Assembly (NCBI RefSeq): GCF_001070855.1 | Contig: NZ_JVLH01000009.1 | Span: 186,001 to 250,000, forward strand | DNA length: 64,000 bases | Source of the DNA: Trueperella pyogenes | GTDB taxonomy: Bacteria > Actinomycetota > Actinomycetes > Actinomycetales > Actinomycetaceae | Direction: 5' to 3' | In this document: positions 39,151 to 58,384 of the stretch, piece by piece | How the letters are laid out: every line of letters starts with the position of its first letter | Position numbering within the stretch: position 1 is the first letter of the stretch | Notes under the pieces: generated by a model | The model's input: the letters and a program-made list of their open reading frames with translations, nothing else | Database searches by the model: none | What the model was told of the DNA's origin: nothing | Position numbers and translations under genes: made by a program

Positions 39151-40494
39151 CTACACAGGTTCTTCGCGCGAAGTAAAGTTCGCAAAGCGTGCCATGTGCC
39201 CCTGGAAAAGCACACGAATAGTTCCCGTTTCACCGTTACGATGCTTGGCCAAAATAATATCGGCTTCACCCGGACGATCTTCAGAATTGTAGTATTCGGG
39301 ACGATGCAAGAGCATGATGATATCCGCGTCCTGTTCCAGCGAACCGGATTCACGCAGGTCACTCATCATCGGCTTCTTGTCGGTTCGCGCTTCGGGACCA
39401 CGGTTCAGCTGGGCGACTGCAACAACCGGAATATCCAGGTCCTTCGCAAGAAGCTTGAGGTTTCGCGACAGAACTGAAACTTCCTGCTGTCGAGATTCAA
39501 CCTGCTTACCCGTTGTCATCAACTGCAGGTAGTCGACAACAACAAGGCCCAGATTGTGCTGCTGCTTGAGGCGGTGACACTTTGAACGAATTTCCGTCAT
39601 GGTGACATTCGCCGAGTCATCAACAAAAATCGGAGCCTCGGAAATCTTGCCGGTTGTTTCAGAGACCTTGCGCCAGTCACGCTCGGTCATTTCGCCCTTC
39701 ATCATCTTGCTCATAAAAACTGAAGACTCGGCGGAAAGCATGCGCATCGCAATATCGTTTTGCGACATTTCCAGCGAGAAGATAACCGAGGTAATTCCGT
39801 GTTTGATCGAGGCCGAACGGCAAAAGTCCAGAGCCAAAGTCGACTTACCCATTGCGGGACGGGCTGCGACGATGATCATCTGCCCACCTCGCAGGCCACC
39901 GGTCATTCGATCAAGGTCAACGAACCCCGTGGGCACACCGGCAAGCTTGCCCTGATTGAGTTCAATCTGCTCCAGTTCGCCCAAAATATTCTCTGACATC
40001 TCTGCCATCGACACGTAGTCAGTTTGCGACTGGCGTTCGGCGACTGCGAAGATCTCAGCCTGTGCCTGGTCAACGATCTCATCGACGTCACCACCGGCAT
40101 CCGCGTAACCCAGCTGGACAACTCGCGTTCCTGCGGTTACCAGTCGACGCAAGATTGCGCGCTCCTTGACAATTCGCGCGTAGTAGCCGGCGTTTGCCGC
40201 GGTGGGAACTGCGGCAATAATCGAATGGATATACGAGGCCCCGCCAACCCTGGACAGGTCGCCCTGCCTTTGCAGTTCACCGACCACCGTCACGGCATCT
40301 GCGGGTTCTCCGCGCCCCATCAGATCAATGATCGTGTTGTGGATGATTTCGTGAGCGGGTTTGTAGTAATCCGACCCTCGAATTTCCTCGGTGACATCGG
40401 CAATAGCTTCCTTGGAGAGCATCATGGACCCCAAGACGGACATCTCAGCGTCGATGTCCTGAGGTGGGGTGCGATCAAAATCTTCCGATGCCAT
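39151..40494 (-). CDS. dnaB: Replicative DNA helicase DnaB
   Basis: Hexameric 5'-3' helicase of the replisome, 447 residues. The N-terminal domain starts PPQDIDAEMSVLGSMML, the RecA-like domain has Walker A ARPAMGKSTLA, Walker B LVVVDYLQLM, and the H4 region SDLRESGSLEQDADI. No intein is present. AGGAGAG precedes the ATG. In many actinobacteria it follows rplI directly; here it is divergent from the rpsF cluster, with a MATE gene and a DnaA-box cluster between. Confidence 0.95.
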   Translation of the reverse strand: MASEDFDRTPPQDIDAEMSVLGSMMLSKEAIADVTEEIRGSDYYKPAHEIIHNTIIDLMGRGEPADAVTVVGELQRQGDLSRVGGASYIHSIIAAVPTAANAGYYARIVKERAILRRLVTAGTRVVQLGYADAGGDVDEIVDQAQAEIFAVAERQSQTDYVSMAEMSENILGELEQIELNQGKLAGVPTGFVDLDRMTGGLRGGQMIIVAARPAMGKSTLALDFCRSASIKHGITSVIFSLEMSQNDIAMRMLSAESSVFMSKMMKGEMTERDWRKVSETTGKISEAPIFVDDSANVTMTEIRSKCHRLKQQHNLGLVVVDYLQLMTTGKQVESRQQEVSVLSRNLKLLAKDLDIPVVAVAQLNRGPEARTDKKPMMSDLRESGSLEQDADIIMLLHRPEYYNSEDRPGEADIILAKHRNGETGTIRVLFQGHMARFANFTSREEPV

Positions 40495-40630
40495 TAAGGG
40501 CTCTCCTAGGCGAATTTGTGCATGTGGACGGGATTAGCCTGCCGCGTCGATTCGAGCTACCGACGCAAAGCGCGTACACGCGAGAGTACTGCCAAGTGAG
40601 GAAGCGTGCCACCCTCAAGTTCAACACGAA

Positions 40631-40984
40631 TGTGGATGACGTGTGGATATCTTGTGGATTTGGCCGCGTGTCATCCACATGTCCTGTGGAAAGGTGTGGA
40701 TAACAGGTATTTCCCAAGCCCTCTCTCAGGCTATCCTCAGTTTTGAGATTCCCTAGAATCACGCCATTTTCCGAGTAAGATCTTTCCACAGATGTGTACA
40801 CAGACTGTGGATAAAAAGTGGAGCGAGAATCAGTGGATAACGATGACCAGCGCAAACATAAGCCTCAAGCGGAGATTGAAGGTTTACGCGCGTCACATTT
40901 ATCTATCCACGATGAATCGACATCAACTGAAAATGAGCACTCTGAACAGGGCCTATCCACAGATGAATCCACGTCAGTGGATAA
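40631..40984. other. Cluster of DnaA-box-like sequences between dnaB and the MATE gene
   Basis: Perfect boxes TGTGGATAA are at 40695-40703 and 40806-40814. One-mismatch boxes are at 40631, 40642, 40653, 40671 (opposite strand), 40832, 40953 (opposite strand) and 40976; two-mismatch forms at 40685, 40782 and 40903. That is at least nine within 355 bases. Such density is typical of oriC or of a DnaA-titrating/regulatory site. Genes to the left run mostly leftwards and those to the right rightwards. dnaA and dnaN are not here, so this is a candidate and not an assigned origin. Between 40495 and 40630 I see nothing. Confidence 0.75.
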
Positions 40985-41057
40985 ACACACACCTACTGAA
41001 GCATCCGATCCCATTCCCAGCATCCTTTCAGAAAAGACAGGTGACAGCACCCCTGTG

Positions 41058-44423: not shown

Positions 44424-46907
44424 TTACTCCGGACCGCCACCGCCACCGGGGCGTCCGCCACCACCATTTGATGAGCCCCCGCCGTTAGAGCCGCCACCGT
44501 TGCCGCCATTGCCGCCGTTGTTTTGGGCAGAAGGAGTAACGGTTGGCTGAACCTCAGCTCCAGGGGTTTCTTGGGTCGCCTCGGGAGTTGGCGTTGGTGT
44601 TTCCTCAGTTGGAGTGGGGGTGGTCGTCGCGACCGGTGCGGGATTCACCGGAGTCGCGGTTTGACGCTTATACCAGTCGAAGTGGAGCTTCGTATCGTTT
44701 GCGCTGACTGCCTTCATGTAGCGCACCCACACGGTTACCGGCCAGTCACCGCCGTGGAATTGGCCCAAACCGCCAATATTTGTCAGCGACACGGGGCTAC
44801 CATTCTCATCGAGCTGGTACATGCTAACGGCAGTGACCAAGCTCGGGGTAAACCCAACAAACTGCGCGGTCTTCTGTTCTTCCGAGGTACCCGTCTTTCC
44901 GCCGCTATCCTGTTTGAGAACTGCGGCGGCCTCGGCTGTACCACCCGAAGCGGTCACCGCCTGCAGTGCCGGAAGGACCGTTGACATGGTCTTCGTGTCG
45001 AAAACCTGCTTAGGATTCACGGTGGTCTGGAAAACCTTCGAACCATCAGAGTTTTGAACCTCGCGGACGATGTGCGGGTTGGTTCGCTGACCGCCAGAAG
45101 CGATGGTCGAATACGCGTGAGCCAGATCGATATTGTGAGGCGCCGCGAAGCCCAGAACATTCAGCAGGGAGTCATCCAAGCCATTGGTGTCTTCGGGGAT
45201 ACCCAGCTCAATGGCAACCTGCTTGGTCGTTGCGGATCCAACTTCCTGGTTGAGCCCAACGAAAACCGTGTTAATCGAATTCTTCGTTGCATTGACCAGG
45301 TTCTGTCGACCCCAGGACACACCCCAGTCATTACTCACCGGACGTGCCAATCCACTGAAGGTCTTCGGCGAGGAACCGTCGTAGGTGTCGTAGATCGACC
45401 CGCCCTGTTCGGCATGAGCAATCAAAGCGAAGGGCTTAAAGGTCGAACCAGCAGCCATGATGTCCTGCGTCGCACCATTTTGCTGGCGCTTGAGGTAGTC
45501 CTTGCCGCCGTATTCGGCAACGATTTCACCGGTAGCGGGATCCAATGATGTCAAAGCCACGTGCATGGAGTCTTCATTCCAGCCACGCACCGTGTACATG
45601 TACTCGGCAGCATCAACCGCCTGATCCTGCTTCTCCTTATCAATTGTGGAAATGATTCGGTATCCACCGGTTGCCAGCTGATCGGCTGTGAAACCGCCCT
45701 CTTGGGCAAGTTCCGTACGGATCTGCTCCATGAGATAACCGGTCGGACCTTCCATTGTCGGCCCGCCCAAAGTATCGGGGTCAATGGTCTTGGGGAATTC
45801 AGCCGCATTCGCATCGGCCTGGGAAATCCACCCGTCTTCGACCATCAGATTGATGACACGAGTCCACCGCGAGCGCGCTTTCTCTTCATCAACCGCCGGG
45901 TCCCACGCGGAAGGAGCGGGAATGATGCCGGCAATCATTGCGGCCTCGGAAAGGGTCAGGTCCTTTGCTTCATGACCGAAGTAAGCCTGAGATGCGGCCT
46001 CAATTCCGTAGGCTCCACGCCCGAAGTAAATGGTGTTGAGGTAGTTGCCGATGATCTGGTCTTTGGACTGTTCGCGGTTGATCTTGAGGGCAAGAATTGC
46101 TTCCTTGGCCTTACCCACATAGCCGGTCGTTTCCCCAACGTAGTAGCGCTCAACATATTGCTGAGTCAGGGTCGACGCACCCTGGCGCGCTCCGCCCCTA
46201 ATATTGTTGACCAGTGCGCGTCCAATACCTTTAAGATCAACGCCGGAGTTCGTGTAGAAAGTCCGGTCTTCCGAGGCAACAACGGCATGCGCAACATAGT
46301 CCGGAAGAGTCGATGCATCGATGATCTTCCTATTGACCTGCGACATCCGGCCCATTTCGGTGGTGCCATCGGCGTAGTAGACAGTCGTGGTCTGCGCGAG
46401 CGCAACCTGATCAGCCTGGGGAACCGTCAACGCGGCATAGGCAACCAAGAAGGTCCCCAGCCCCGCGATGATCAGCCCAAGGAAAGTAAAGAGGATTCCG
46501 CGGCCGATACGTGCACCTAGGCTCCGCTTCTTCTTCCCCTTATTTGCCTTACCGCCCTTAGCTGGGCCCTTCTTTGCACGCGCGCGGCTTGCTGCTGCCG
46601 AGGCCTCGCGATCGCTTTGTGGGCGAGTGGGACGCTTACGCGCACTACTTGCCGACGAAGAGCTAGCGCCTTGGGTGCCTGTGCGTCGACCCTCGCTGCT
46701 GCTTCCTGTGCGCGCCGAGGCCCCGCCTGAGACCCGTGCAGCTGCGGAAGTCCGCTTGGGTGCAGAGGACGCCGAGGATGCGGAAGTCTTGGGAATCGTT
46801 CCCTCTCCATCGCGACGGGCCTGCTCTGCGAGCCGACGTCGAGTGGCCTCGGCCCGCGAGGGAAGAGGTCGACGTCCGCGGTCGTCGTTTGCGTTAGAAG
46901 GTGCCAC
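44424..46907 (-). CDS. Class A penicillin-binding protein (bifunctional transglycosylase/transpeptidase)
   Basis: Builds and crosslinks peptidoglycan, PonA1-like, about 827 residues. A basic Ser/Ala/Arg-rich cytosolic N-terminus of about 125 residues precedes one membrane helix. The GT51 domain has VVASEDRTFYTNSGVD and GASTLTQQ, the transpeptidase domain AGSTFKPF (catalytic Ser), KNSINTVF (SxN) and SGGKTGTS (KTG). The C-terminus is a Pro/Thr-rich segment ending in Gly/Asn repeats. The start is uncertain: GTG 46907 has AAAGG upstream, ATG 46928 has none. Convergent with the rpsF operon; pcnA lies upstream on the same strand. Confidence 0.92.
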   Translation of the reverse strand: MAPSNANDDRGRRPLPSRAEATRRRLAEQARRDGEGTIPKTSASSASSAPKRTSAAARVSGGASARTGSSSEGRRTGTQGASSSSASSARKRPTRPQSDREASAAASRARAKKGPAKGGKANKGKKKRSLGARIGRGILFTFLGLIIAGLGTFLVAYAALTVPQADQVALAQTTTVYYADGTTEMGRMSQVNRKIIDASTLPDYVAHAVVASEDRTFYTNSGVDLKGIGRALVNNIRGGARQGASTLTQQYVERYYVGETTGYVGKAKEAILALKINREQSKDQIIGNYLNTIYFGRGAYGIEAASQAYFGHEAKDLTLSEAAMIAGIIPAPSAWDPAVDEEKARSRWTRVINLMVEDGWISQADANAAEFPKTIDPDTLGGPTMEGPTGYLMEQIRTELAQEGGFTADQLATGGYRIISTIDKEKQDQAVDAAEYMYTVRGWNEDSMHVALTSLDPATGEIVAEYGGKDYLKRQQNGATQDIMAAGSTFKPFALIAHAEQGGSIYDTYDGSSPKTFSGLARPVSNDWGVSWGRQNLVNATKNSINTVFVGLNQEVGSATTKQVAIELGIPEDTNGLDDSLLNVLGFAAPHNIDLAHAYSTIASGGQRTNPHIVREVQNSDGSKVFQTTVNPKQVFDTKTMSTVLPALQAVTASGGTAEAAAVLKQDSGGKTGTSEEQKTAQFVGFTPSLVTAVSMYQLDENGSPVSLTNIGGLGQFHGGDWPVTVWVRYMKAVSANDTKLHFDWYKRQTATPVNPAPVATTTPTPTEETPTPTPEATQETPGAEVQPTVTPSAQNNGGNGGNGGGSNGGGSSNGGGGRPGGGGGPE

Positions 46908-46991
46908 GAAAAACCAGCCTTTCAGCATAGGTGATCGTGACTAGCCTACGCAGAAAGCATGCATATTGCCTAAAGCAAGCTCCGGATCGGC

Positions 46992-48596
46992 TTAGTTTTC
47001 GCTGGCAGAACGACGCTTGCGCGCCTTCTTTTCGGCGGCCTTTGCTTCCCAGCGTTCCTGCTGCGCTTGATACTCCGCGGCGATCTCTCGAACTTCATCC
47101 GATGCCCACCACGCAAGGAGTGCTTCGCGCGCCGCTTCTTCGCCCAAAGGCCCCTGTTCCATTCGAAGATCCAGAAGATAATCGCGGGCCATCTTCACGG
47201 CCTTCGAAGGACGCAGACCAAGAATTTCCATGATCTGATCACCATCGAGATCGGGGCGAATAGCGTCGAGTTCTTCTTGGGCGCGAAGAGCAGCAATACG
47301 CTCTTCCAGGTCGTCATAGGCAGCAGACAGGTAGGCAGCCTTGCGCTTATTACGCGTTGTGCAATCAGCGCGCGTCAGGCGATGCAGGCGCTCAAGAAGC
47401 TCTCCCGCATCGGCAACGTAGCGGCGGACGGCCGAATCCGTCCATTTCGCTTCCCCATAGCCATGGAAACGTAGGTGGAGGGCAACCAGTTCTGAAACGG
47501 CATCGATCGTTGCCTTATCAAAACGCAGGGCCTTCATCCGCTTACGAGTGAGCTTCGCTCCCACTAATTCATGGTGGTGGAATGACACCGTGCCATTGGA
47601 TTCAAAGCGACGCGTGGCCGGCTTGCCCACATCGTGCATGAGTGCCGCGAAACGCAAAATGAAATCAGGACCGGGAACAGGGCCATCGGCATCCGTTTCC
47701 AAATCGATCGCTTGATCCAAAACGGTCAGCGTATGTTCGTAAACATCCTTGTGACGATGATGCTCATCAACGGTCGATACCAGAGCAGACAGTTCCGGCA
47801 GGACGATATCTGCAACCCCGGTATGGACCATCAATTCCAAACCGCGCCTGGGCCACGGCGAAATAACGAGTCGTTCAAGTTCAGCGCGGATACGTTCAGC
47901 TGAAACGATCTCAAGACGTCCGGCCATTGACTCCATGGCGTTCATGACGTCTTCATCAACATCAATACCCAGCTGGGCACTGAAGCGCGCCGCACGCATG
48001 ATTCGCAGCGGATCGTCATCAAAGGACTGCAGAGCACTAACGGGGGTACGCAGACGGCCCGAAGCCAAATCGCCAAGGCCATCGTGGGGATCAACCAGAG
48101 CCATCTGAGGCAATCGCATGGCCATCGCATTGACGGTGAAATCACGCCGCGTTAGATCGCCTTCCAAGGTGTCGCCATACTCGACCTCAGGCTTGCGCGA
48201 ACCGACCTCATACGAATCCGTGCGGTAGGTCGTGACTTCAACGACCAGCTTTCCGTGGCGACCACCAATGGTCCCGAACTCGCGGCCAATATCCCAGGTT
48301 GCATTCCCCCACTGCGCCAATAGCTTTTCAGTTTTCTCTGGACGCGCAGAAGTTGTGCAATCAAAATCGTGGGGAGTGAGTCCCAAGAAGGCATCGCGAA
48401 CCGGTCCACCGACCAGGCTGATTTCCTCTCCAGCTTCGGCAAAAATTTCACCGAGCTCGAGGATTTCCTTGGGAAGGTGGGAAAAAGCCTGCTGTGCCTG
48501 AGCCATTAATAGACCCAGATCGCCCTCGCCTAGACCGCTGGGAAGGGGGGCGTGAGAGCGGGATTGACCCATCGTTCGCGAAAGTTGTGTACTCAT
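46992..48596 (-). CDS. pcnA: CCA tRNA nucleotidyltransferase with HD domain
   Basis: Adds or repairs the 3' CCA end of tRNAs. The N-terminal polymerase domain has SLVGGPVRDAFLG, the DFDCTT metal site, RRDFTVNAMAM and DDPLRIMRAARFSA. An HD domain follows (ALMHDVGKP, then HLRFHGY). The C-terminal 20 residues are Lys/Arg-rich. Length is about 534 residues. The frame is open far upstream; the ATG at 48596 right after GGAGGGG gives the likely N-terminus but 48608 is also possible. Divergent from the nudix gene, the arrangement known around the actinobacterial mviN cluster. Confidence 0.93.
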   Translation of the reverse strand: MSTQLSRTMGQSRSHAPLPSGLGEGDLGLLMAQAQQAFSHLPKEILELGEIFAEAGEEISLVGGPVRDAFLGLTPHDFDCTTSARPEKTEKLLAQWGNATWDIGREFGTIGGRHGKLVVEVTTYRTDSYEVGSRKPEVEYGDTLEGDLTRRDFTVNAMAMRLPQMALVDPHDGLGDLASGRLRTPVSALQSFDDDPLRIMRAARFSAQLGIDVDEDVMNAMESMAGRLEIVSAERIRAELERLVISPWPRRGLELMVHTGVADIVLPELSALVSTVDEHHRHKDVYEHTLTVLDQAIDLETDADGPVPGPDFILRFAALMHDVGKPATRRFESNGTVSFHHHELVGAKLTRKRMKALRFDKATIDAVSELVALHLRFHGYGEAKWTDSAVRRYVADAGELLERLHRLTRADCTTRNKRKAAYLSAAYDDLEERIAALRAQEELDAIRPDLDGDQIMEILGLRPSKAVKMARDYLLDLRMEQGPLGEEAAREALLAWWASDEVREIAAEYQAQQERWEAKAAEKKARKRRSASEN

Positions 48597-48740
48597 CCCC
48601 TCCAGCATGCCATGATTTCCGCATCTTTGATGCATCCGCACCACGGCCTCGTCTTCGGTTGACATGCGCCGAAGGTCGCACCAATTGACCTTCTGACACA
48701 CGAAAATTGCGGTAATTCCCACTTGACCGATGGTGCGACC

Positions 48741-48775
48741 TGACCAAGTGCCCCAATCCCGCCTAAAGTGGAGGT
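48741..48775 (+). promoter_or_regulatory. Promoter of the nudix-DUF6049-murJ operon, probably leaderless
   Basis: TGACCA at 48741-48746 and TAAAGT at 48764-48769 are 17 bases apart, and the ATG follows the -10 after six bases (ggaggt). The GGAGG touches the start codon and is too close to act as a normal Shine-Dalgarno, so a leaderless transcript is likely. Confidence 0.6.
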
Positions 48776-49315
48776 ATGACTGTGCCTTCTGAAGCCTTAC
48801 GACCCGGAGTGCCCCGGCCTCCGCGTCGCAATCCTTCTTTGCGCACGGTCCAGCCGACACCCCATTTCCTTCCCGTTTCTTCCGAAACCTCCGCGGGCGG
48901 CATCGTTGTCGATGTTCGTGATGGTCAGCCCTATGCGGCAATCATTGCTCGCCGTAATCGGTCGGGGAAGATCGAATGGTGCCTCCCTAAGGGACATCTT
49001 GAAGGCCGTGAATCTCCCGAGGAAGCCGCTCTGCGCGAAGTCGCCGAAGAGACCGGAATCCACGGGCGAATTATTCGTCACCTGGCCTCAATCGACTATT
49101 GGTTCTCAGGTGCAGATCGACGAATTCACAAGGTCGTTCACCACTACTTAATGGGCTATATTTCAGGCTCCATCACCGTCGAGGGCGACCCCGATCACGA
49201 GGCCGAAGACGCCGCGTGGGTTCCCTTACGCGACCTCACCCATGAGCTGGCCTATCCCAATGAAAGGCGCATTGTCGGTATCGCTTTGGACTTGCTCTAC
49301 CGGGATGCATCATGA
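48776..49315 (+). CDS. Nudix hydrolase
   Basis: A 179-residue NUDIX protein. The full nudix box GHLEGRESPEEAALREVAEETGI is present with all catalytic glutamates. The N-terminal 35 residues are basic and Pro-rich. Substrate unknown; the orthologous position next to DUF6049 and murJ is conserved in mycobacteria (Rv3908 type, MutT4). The following gene overlaps it as ATGA, so translation is coupled. Confidence 0.9.
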   Translation: MTVPSEALRPGVPRPPRRNPSLRTVQPTPHFLPVSSETSAGGIVVDVRDGQPYAAIIARRNRSGKIEWCLPKGHLEGRESPEEAALREVAEETGIHGRIIRHLASIDYWFSGADRRIHKVVHHYLMGYISGSITVEGDPDHEAEDAAWVPLRDLTHELAYPNERRIVGIALDLLYRDAS

Positions 49316-56070: not shown

Positions 56071-57975
56071 CTATCGTTTGTGGGCACGCGCTGCGCGCAG
56101 CCCGTTGGCGATAACGACGACCTCGGCGACCTCGTGGACGAGGACGACCGCGGCCAGGCCGAGCACGCCGGTGATGGCCAGCGGCGGCAGCACGGCGATG
56201 ATCGCCAGGGACAGCACGATGTTCTGGTTCATGATCACCCGGCCGCGGCGGGCATGCCGCAGCGCCTGCGGGATCAGGCCAAGGTCGCGCCCGGTGAAGG
56301 CGACGTCGGCAGACTCGATCGCGGCGTCGGAGCCGGTCGCGCCCATCGCGATGCCCACAGTCGCACCGGCCAGGGCGGGGGCGTCATTGATACCGTCGCC
56401 GATCATCGCAGTCGGTGAGGCCTCGGAGAGCTGGGCAACGATGCGGGCTTTGTCCTCGGGCCGCAGCTCGGCGTGCACGTCGCCGATCCCGGCGATCTGC
56501 CCGAGCGCGTGGGCGGTGCGGGAGTTGTCGCCGGTGAGCATGCTCACCTCGACGCCCTGGTCACGCAGGGTCCGCACGACCTCGGGGACCTCGGGGCGCA
56601 GCTCGTCGCGGACGCCGATCGCCCCGGCCAGGCGGCCGTCGACGGCCACGAGCACGCAGGTCTGGCCCTCGGCCTCCAAGTCCTTGACCCGGGCCTTGAG
56701 CGGTCCGGCGTCGATCCAGCGGGGGCTGCCCACCGTCACCCGTCGGCCGTCGACGGTGCCGCCGATGCCGTGCCCGGCCTCCTCCGTCACGTCCTGCGCG
56801 GCGAGGGCCCCCTGGCCCGCGGCGGCGATGGCGGCGGCGAGAGGGTGCGTCGAGTGCTGCTCGACGGACGCCGCCCAGGCGAGCACCTGCGCGTCGTCGA
56901 ACCCGTCGGCGGCGACGACGGCGGTGACCTCGGGCCGGTTGCGGGTCAGGGTGCCGGTCTTGTCCACGGCGAGGTGGCGGATGCCGCCGAGGCGCTCGAA
57001 CGCGGCACCGCTCTTGATGACGACGCCGAACTTCGTCGCCGCCCCGATCGCGGACACCACGGTGACCGGCACCGCGATCGCCATCGCGCACGGGCTGGCG
57101 GCGACGAGGACGACCAGGGCGCGGGTGATCCAGGTCTCGGGGTCACCAAGCAGCGATCCGAGCACGCCGACCAGGACGGCGAGGATCATCACGCCGGGCA
57201 CCAGCGGGCGGGCGATCTTGTCGGCGATGCGCGCACGCTCGCCCTTCTCGGCCTGGGCCTGCTCTACCAGCTCCACGATCGTGGTCAGCGAGTTGTCGGT
57301 GCCCGGGGCGGTCGCCTCGACCTCCAGCACTCCGGCGGTATTGATCGCCCCCGCCGAGACCGCGTCATCGGGTGCGACCTCGACCGGGATCGACTCGCCG
57401 GTGATAGCGGAGGTGTCCAGGCTGGAGCGTCCGACGCGGACGATCCCGTCGGTGACGACCCGCTCGCCCGGACGGACCAGCAGCACGTCGCCGACGGCAA
57501 TCTCCTTGGCCGGGACCTCCACCGAGGCACCGTCGCGCAGCACGGTCGCGGTCTCCGGCACGAGCTTGAGCAGCGCGCGCAGGCCGCCGCGGGCGCGGTC
57601 CATCGCCTTGTCCTCCAGGGCCTCGGCGATCGAGTACAGGAACGCCAGCGCGGCGGCCTCCTCCACGTAGCCGAGGATGACCGCGCCGACGGCACTGATC
57701 GTCATCAGCAGCGCGATCCCGAGCTTCCGCTTGGCGAACAGGTTCCGCAGCGCGCCGGGCACGAACGTGTACGCGCCCAGCAGCAGGCCCGCCGAGAACG
57801 CGACCAGCGCCGCGACGTGCAGCCCCGACCACTCCAGCACCAGGCCGGTGCCGAACGCGACCCCGGAGAGGATCGGCACCACCAGGCCCGGGTCGCGCCA
57901 CCACGGGCGCTCGGTCTCCTCTGCCTCTTCAGCGGCGTTGGTGGTCGGCTCGTCGCAGCCGCATGCGGCGCTCAC
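56071..57975 (-). CDS. CmtA/CadA-type heavy-metal P1B ATPase (Cd/Pb efflux)
   Basis: A 634-residue metal-exporting ATPase. The membrane metal site is AASPCAMAIA (SPC variant), with SAITGESIPVEV as actuator motif, DKTGTLTRN as phosphorylation site, STHPLAAAI as nucleotide-domain motif and MIGDGINDAPALAG as hinge. The last helix has HEVAEVVVIANG. The only N-terminal cysteines are in CGCDEP. Starts at GTG 57975 overlapping the cmtR stop as GTGA, so coupled. The gene is far richer in GC than its surroundings, a sign of transfer. The partner regulator is of the Cd/Pb-sensing CmtR type, hence the metal assignment, which remains an inference. Confidence 0.88.
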   Translation of the reverse strand: MSAACGCDEPTTNAAEEAEETERPWWRDPGLVVPILSGVAFGTGLVLEWSGLHVAALVAFSAGLLLGAYTFVPGALRNLFAKRKLGIALLMTISAVGAVILGYVEEAAALAFLYSIAEALEDKAMDRARGGLRALLKLVPETATVLRDGASVEVPAKEIAVGDVLLVRPGERVVTDGIVRVGRSSLDTSAITGESIPVEVAPDDAVSAGAINTAGVLEVEATAPGTDNSLTTIVELVEQAQAEKGERARIADKIARPLVPGVMILAVLVGVLGSLLGDPETWITRALVVLVAASPCAMAIAVPVTVVSAIGAATKFGVVIKSGAAFERLGGIRHLAVDKTGTLTRNRPEVTAVVAADGFDDAQVLAWAASVEQHSTHPLAAAIAAAGQGALAAQDVTEEAGHGIGGTVDGRRVTVGSPRWIDAGPLKARVKDLEAEGQTCVLVAVDGRLAGAIGVRDELRPEVPEVVRTLRDQGVEVSMLTGDNSRTAHALGQIAGIGDVHAELRPEDKARIVAQLSEASPTAMIGDGINDAPALAGATVGIAMGATGSDAAIESADVAFTGRDLGLIPQALRHARRGRVIMNQNIVLSLAIIAVLPPLAITGVLGLAAVVLVHEVAEVVVIANGLRAARAHKR

Positions 57976-58340
57976 GAGGCGTCCTCGGAGTTGCTCGGAC
58001 CGCAGCAGCCGGGCACCGAGCAGTGCGGATCGATGCACGGGGCGCTCTCGTCCACCGCCAGCGTCACGTCCATCAGCGCCGTCAGCGCCGCGGCCAGGTG
58101 CGGGTCGGCGATCTCGTAGCGGGTCTGCCGCCCCTCGGGCTCAGCGACCACGATGCCGCAGTCGCGCAGACAGGTCAGATGGTTGGACACGTTCGAGCGG
58201 GTCAGCCCCAGCTCGCGCGAGAGCACGGCAGGGTGGCTTGGACCGTCAAGCAGGGACATCAGGATCCGGGAGCGCGTCGGGTCGGCCATGGCCCGGCCGA
58301 GCCGGTTCATGACGTCGAGGCGCGAAGCAATAGTCAGCAT
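57972..58340 (-). CDS. CmtR-like ArsR-family metal sensor
   Basis: A 122-residue winged-helix repressor. The N-terminus MLTIASRLDVMNRLGRAMADPTRSRIL and the helix with TCLRDCG match CmtR, whose Cd/Pb site uses the two cysteines there plus a third near the C-terminus; here CIDPHCSVPGCCG supplies candidates. The ATG at 58340 is preferred to the open frame up to 58370. It is leader gene of the pair with the ATPase and has a dyad over its own promoter at 58342-58358, indicating autorepression. Confidence 0.87.
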   Translation of the reverse strand: MLTIASRLDVMNRLGRAMADPTRSRILMSLLDGPSHPAVLSRELGLTRSNVSNHLTCLRDCGIVVAEPEGRQTRYEIADPHLAAALTALMDVTLAVDESAPCIDPHCSVPGCCGPSNSEDAS

Positions 58341-58341
58341 G

Positions 58342-58358
58342 CACTGAACTATACAGTG
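58342..58358. promoter_or_regulatory. Imperfect dyad over the cmtR promoter
   Basis: cactg and cagtg arms separated by seven bases. The -10-like TATAGT (minus strand, 58353-58348) lies inside, and the cmtR ATG follows seven bases after it. A repressor bound here would block initiation. Confidence 0.55.
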
Positions 58359-58384
58359 ATGGCTGACCAATAGTCCAGTTGGGA

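Follow-up and report, generated by a model that had tools for sequence, protein, structure and literature searches.

The analyzed stretch of DNA (hereafter, the window) comprised 64,000 nucleotides, corresponding to bases 186001–250000 of contig C8 in a 1.92-Mb genome of 14 contigs. It contained the gene of the replicative helicase DnaB, with its start codon at 40494 and a product 100% identical to the DnaB of Actinomyces sp. ph3, the best named relative, as well as a divergent gene of a MATE-family efflux transporter, the start codon of which is presumably GTG 40833 or GTG 40818. A cluster of DnaA boxes, defined in this genome as sites with no more than one mismatch to TGTGGATAA, was found upstream of dnaB. 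The features of the locus and of the adjacent part of the window were as follows:

39151–40494, minus strand: dnaB, replicative DNA helicase, 447 aa (TIGR00665 DnaB, 524.8 bits, cut-off 385)
40583–40588, minus strand: predicted dnaB −10 element TACTCT (TANNNT type), proposed by comparison, 42 bp from the last box
40631–40639, minus strand: DnaA box TCATCCACA of the tandem array, centre at about −59
40642–40650, minus strand: DnaA box ATATCCACA, 11 bp from the 40631 box, centre at about −70, kept in the nearest relatives
40653–40661, minus strand: weaker DnaA box AAATCCACA with two mismatches, 11 bp from the 40642 box, centre at about −81, with one mismatch in relative L040
40671–40679, plus strand: inverted DnaA box TCATCCACA
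40685–40693, minus strand: weak DnaA box CTTTCCACA with two mismatches
40695–40703, minus strand: perfect DnaA box TTATCCACA
40782–40790, plus strand: weak inverted box CTTTCCACA, partner of the perfect 40806 box according to alignments with L040, L052 and other Actinomycetaceae
40806–40814, minus strand: perfect DnaA box TTATCCACA
40832–40840, minus strand: DnaA box TTATCCACT, overlapping the likely MATE start codon
40833–42416, plus strand: divergent MATE-family efflux transporter (TIGR00797 matE, 236.8 bits), frame kept in relatives
40953–40961, plus strand: DnaA box CTATCCACA in the MATE N-terminal coding region, TTATCCACA in L040, with the CTTATCCACA context kept in relatives
40976–40984, minus strand: DnaA box TTATCCACT in the MATE N-terminal coding region
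44424–46928, leftwards: PBP gene
46992–48941 (within), leftwards: CCA-transferase-like gene
56071–58038, minus strand: heavy-metal-type P-type ATPase (translation read by eye)
57972–58370, minus strand: ArsR-like regulator (translation read by eye)

Between positions 40631 and 40984, TGTGGATAA was matched with at most one mismatch at eight sites (40631, 40642, 40671, 40695, 40806, 40832, 40953 and 40976). The earlier note on this DNA had reported at least nine; the dense cluster was borne out, the count being slightly too high, while the two perfect boxes that it mentioned were confirmed at 40695 and 40806. A further site lies at 40338, within dnaB and outside this interval, and with two mismatches allowed, 13 sites were counted across 40500–41000. 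At the genome-wide rate (302 sites within one mismatch in 1.92 Mb), 0.056 sites would be expected in 354 bases vs. 8 observed (P(≥8) approximately 2 × 10−15). Perfect boxes number 20 in the genome, two of them in 40631–40984 and three in the rpmH–dnaA gap. The right part of the cluster, from 40832 on, is not intergenic and falls within the start of the MATE gene. In the N-terminal extension of this gene (40833–41030), coding sequence overlaps DnaA boxes, the peptides LSTD and SVDK being encoded by box sequences; both the frame and most of the boxes were kept in two near relatives. The block 40782–40820 was among the best conserved in the alignment with the nearest relatives, L040 and L052.

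A switch point of gene orientation, also described in the earlier note, was observed in part: dnaB runs leftwards and MATE–rpsF–ssb–rpsR–rplI run rightwards, but the switch is not clean, as the PBP and CCA-transferase-like genes run leftwards again before nudix–murJ–trxB. Farther to the right, with trxB on one side and an ABC transporter pair on the other, the P-type ATPase and ArsR-like genes form a GC-rich (64%) minus-strand pair (56071–58370), the composition of which suggests that it was acquired.

The upstream regions of dnaB were compared in 61 named loci and in genomes drawn across the class, with one mismatch to TTATCCACA or TTGTCCACA allowed in the 61 loci. The 500 bp upstream of dnaB in these loci contained 7.18 boxes per kb, vs. 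about 0.2 per kb in nearly all other 500-bp bins up to 10 kb on either side; 161 of the 219 boxes pointed with dnaB, and a reversed-motif decoy gave no peak upstream of dnaB in the same loci. After redundancy had been removed by shared 10-mers, at least two boxes were present in 87 of the 99 upstream regions (8 of 99 for the reversed-motif decoy). The cluster was found in Actinomycetaceae, Georgenia, Glutamicibacter, Nocardioides, Cutibacterium and other Propionibacteriaceae, Mobiluncus, Actinospica and Nanopelagicales, as well as in most of the further genomes drawn across the class. Outside the class, the distribution is patchy and not phylum-wide: of 40 genomes from the rest of the phylum, only 8 had at least two boxes. 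The cluster was absent from the eight Brachybacterium loci (L072, L075, L076, L077, L083, L089, L109 and L110) and from one Bifidobacteriaceae locus, and consequently dnaB can be expressed without it.

The neighbor upstream of dnaB was a divergent MATE gene in Actinomyces, Georgenia, Bowdeniella and Nocardioides and a co-directional rplI in a cellulomonad and Actinospica, with the cluster present in all of them. It was still there in Cutibacterium, where neither MATE nor rplI adjoins dnaB, and it remained upstream of dnaB in Mobiluncus, where dnaB is inverted relative to rplI. The cluster is linked to dnaB irrespective of the neighbors, orientation and distance to dnaA, with Brachybacterium and the Bifidobacteriaceae locus as exceptions.

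Analysis of box spacing revealed that boxes of the same orientation were separated by approximately 11, 22, 33, 44, 55 and 65 bp (period 10.8, R = 0.73, n = 178), and those in plus/minus order by 14, 24, 35, 46 and 57 bp (period 10.7, R = 0.84); minus/plus pairs had no clear period. With a period of about 10.7–10.8 bp, the boxes keep to one face of the helix. The distance from the last box pointing with dnaB to a TANNNT sequence, the actinobacterial −10 element, was 30–32, 41–44, 51–55 or 62–65 bp. An in-phase element was present in 53 sequences and an out-of-phase one in a single sequence, figures that express conservation rather than 53 independent events, since the sequences are related by descent; the phase classes were set after the distances had been seen, the periodicity test and the controls being independent of them. 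The phase R was 0.77, compared with a mean of 0.28 in dinucleotide shuffles. The control motifs AT...T, T...AT, TT...A and TA...A had no such phase, and AA...T had a weaker one. On the side away from dnaB, i.e., the MATE side, TANNNT was in phase three times and out of phase six times, so that no phased −10 element was seen there. A TTGnnn hexamer preceded the −10 element by approximately 18 bp at many of the in-phase sites.

In the window, the order in the dnaB direction is the 40806 box with its inverted partner at 40782, the 40695 box, the inverted 40671 box, the tandem boxes 40653/40642/40631 and, after 42 bp, TACTCT at 40588–40583; this offset belongs to an in-phase class, the promoter itself being predicted by comparison. 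The assignment of the −10 element is supported by the presence of TAnnCT in the same place in most of the aligned Actinomycetaceae, and transcription of dnaB would start near 40576. The tandem boxes, at about −81, −70 and −59, would then be placed where activators that touch RNA polymerase from the upstream side are typically found, as at CRP class I promoters of E. coli. A scan of the region with the sigma-70 consensus returned no promoter on either strand because the −35 element is poor, as might be expected if this promoter depends on an activator. In the literature searched, no paper beyond those cited here mentioned DnaA together with the region upstream of dnaB, and a phased architecture shared by the whole class does not seem to have been reported there.

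Taken together, the cluster is most likely an array of boxes through which DnaA regulates the dnaB promoter. It lies directly upstream of dnaB at a density above chance, as would be expected of a DnaA-regulated dnaB promoter of the mycobacterial type, and its boxes stand in a fixed relation to the predicted dnaB core promoter. The suggestion in the earlier note of a regulatory region for dnaB is strongly supported by the linkage to dnaB across the class, by the helical phase with the −10 element and by the mycobacterial DnaA-binding data (PMC7738170). According to the model proposed here, DnaA would bind the tandem boxes, one helical turn apart, directly upstream of the dnaB core promoter and, judging from the order and phasing of the boxes, would lie on one face of the helix, where it could contact RNA polymerase or set access to the promoter. 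The farther boxes, including those at the MATE start, may extend or nucleate the DnaA oligomer. Transcription of dnaB would most likely be raised when DnaA is abundant, a direction that the mycobacterial data support, and the supply of helicase would thereby be coupled to the level of the initiator. DnaA probably regulates dnaB by activation; this sign is deduced from one M. tuberculosis mutant and from the location of the boxes upstream of, and not over, the core promoter. It should be noted that the cluster is longer than an activator requires, which counts against a regulatory array.

The dense boxes, of oriC-like number, and a maximum AT content in 50 bp of 64%, close to the 66–68% of the regions flanking dnaA, would also fit the chromosomal oriC or a second active origin. 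AT content, however, does not separate these regions, and a search for DnaA-trios yielded none in any of the three, oriC included, and was thus not discriminating. Such an origin is extremely improbable here: dnaA was located at C8:257472, at a distance of 31 kb on the right-hand side, between the rpmH–dnaA gap with 7 boxes in 186 bp and the dnaA–dnaN gap with more, mostly weaker boxes. Moreover, the cumulative GC skew over 204 kb of the contig had a flat local minimum at approximately C8 246–274 kb, around dnaA, and no turn at 226.6 kb, the position of the cluster. The location of oriC at the cluster was rejected on the basis of the position of dnaA and the local GC skew, and in mycobacteria the published oriC is distinct from the dnaB site (PMC7738170). 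The earlier note correctly stated that dnaA and dnaN were not in view, dnaA being outside the window though only 31 kb away; its chromosomal-origin reading was not supported, given the box clusters of dnaA itself and the local skew minimum there, and nothing was found in favor of the second origin-like element that it also proposed.

It is possible, although we consider it rather unlikely, that the cluster serves mainly as a DnaA titration or inactivation site (datA-like or of the Bacillus/Streptomyces type), which, being near oriC and doubled early, would soak up DnaA and prevent re-initiation. Many boxes, two of them perfect, 31 kb from dnaA are consistent with this, as are the distances between dnaB and dnaA: 20–105 kb in most of the near-complete genomes checked, 135–166 kb in Propionibacteriaceae, where the cluster is present, and always within about 170 kb in the cluster-bearing genomes measured. 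Therefore, a role of proximity to the origin is not fully separable among these genomes, but dnaB itself stays near oriC. In Brachybacterium, dnaB is 230–270 kb from dnaA and has no cluster, though the boxes around dnaA are normal; this correlation, however, comes from one lineage. Neither a phase relation to the −10 element nor a lasting association with dnaB despite inversions and changes of neighbors would be required for titration, and both were observed; titration is compatible with the regulation of dnaB and may occur as a side effect of the same boxes. Regulation of the divergent MATE gene instead of dnaB is highly improbable. The boxes in 40832–40984 are indeed situated at the beginning of the MATE gene and have been conserved together with its reading frame in the nearest relatives, but the cluster is also found where dnaB has no MATE gene next to it (Mobiluncus, Cutibacterium and the rplI-adjacent loci), and the MATE side has no phased −10 element; on these grounds, it was rejected as the main role.

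A second cluster of DnaA boxes was detected at C8:153829–154060 (L003:7829–8060), 32 kb to the left of the window and just downstream of crgA (Rv0011c in M. tuberculosis); a 76% AT stretch lies between its two groups of boxes. Across 30 genomes of the class, 82 boxes (one mismatch) were found in the 1.5 kb downstream of crgA and one in the 1.5 kb upstream, and most of these genomes had boxes downstream. In Brachybacterium G033, the crgA cluster is gone as well, and dnaB and crgA are 268 and 569 kb from dnaA, respectively. The crgA cluster occupies the place of the M. tuberculosis Rv0010c–Rv0011c DnaA site, which is tied to isoniazid susceptibility and to which the authors found no counterpart elsewhere (PMC7738170). 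Only tentatively, and with more doubt than confidence, can it be proposed that the array phased with the dnaB promoter and that downstream of crgA, both near oriC, form a conserved control system of Actinomycetes, tying the supply of helicase and possibly the availability of DnaA to the level of the initiator, in the role of datA/DARS of E. coli.

What limits and times the initiation of replication in Actinomycetes is poorly understood, and to our knowledge, no homologues of the E. coli and Bacillus helicase loaders and DnaA regulators have been identified in mycobacteria. The class-wide phased array upstream of dnaB indicates that control of helicase expression by the initiator is a general trait of the group rather than one peculiar to mycobacteria, and the circuit becomes testable in harmless laboratory species. 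The array also cautions that counts of DnaA boxes alone can mislead the prediction of origins.

Compared with the oriC of the same genome (rpmH–dnaA–dnaN), the cluster has the same boxes in similar number and a similar AT content; unlike oriC, it contains neither dnaA nor dnaN, is not at the skew minimum and is linked to the dnaB promoter. Dense DnaA boxes outside oriC are likewise found in E. coli datA and in the Bacillus and Streptomyces clusters, among them the Streptomyces D78 cluster, whereas the cluster of the window differs from these in its association with the dnaB promoter, evident from both the phase and the linkage. In Caulobacter crescentus, which belongs to a different phylum, DnaA boxes are likewise predicted upstream of dnaB, a gene of the DnaA regulon (review, PMC8203912). 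The gene and the side are also shared with M. tuberculosis (dnaB, Rv0057) and M. smegmatis, where a DnaA site upstream of dnaB was established by experiment, as opposed to that of the window, which is known from sequence alone. Five strong DnaA sites, one of them upstream of dnaB, were identified in M. tuberculosis using IDAP-seq (Hicks et al. 2020, PMC7738170), and ChIP-seq in M. smegmatis revealed the same five, including that upstream of dnaB (PMC7738170); the DnaA I282T variant binds less upstream of dnaB and under-expresses this gene (PMC7738170).
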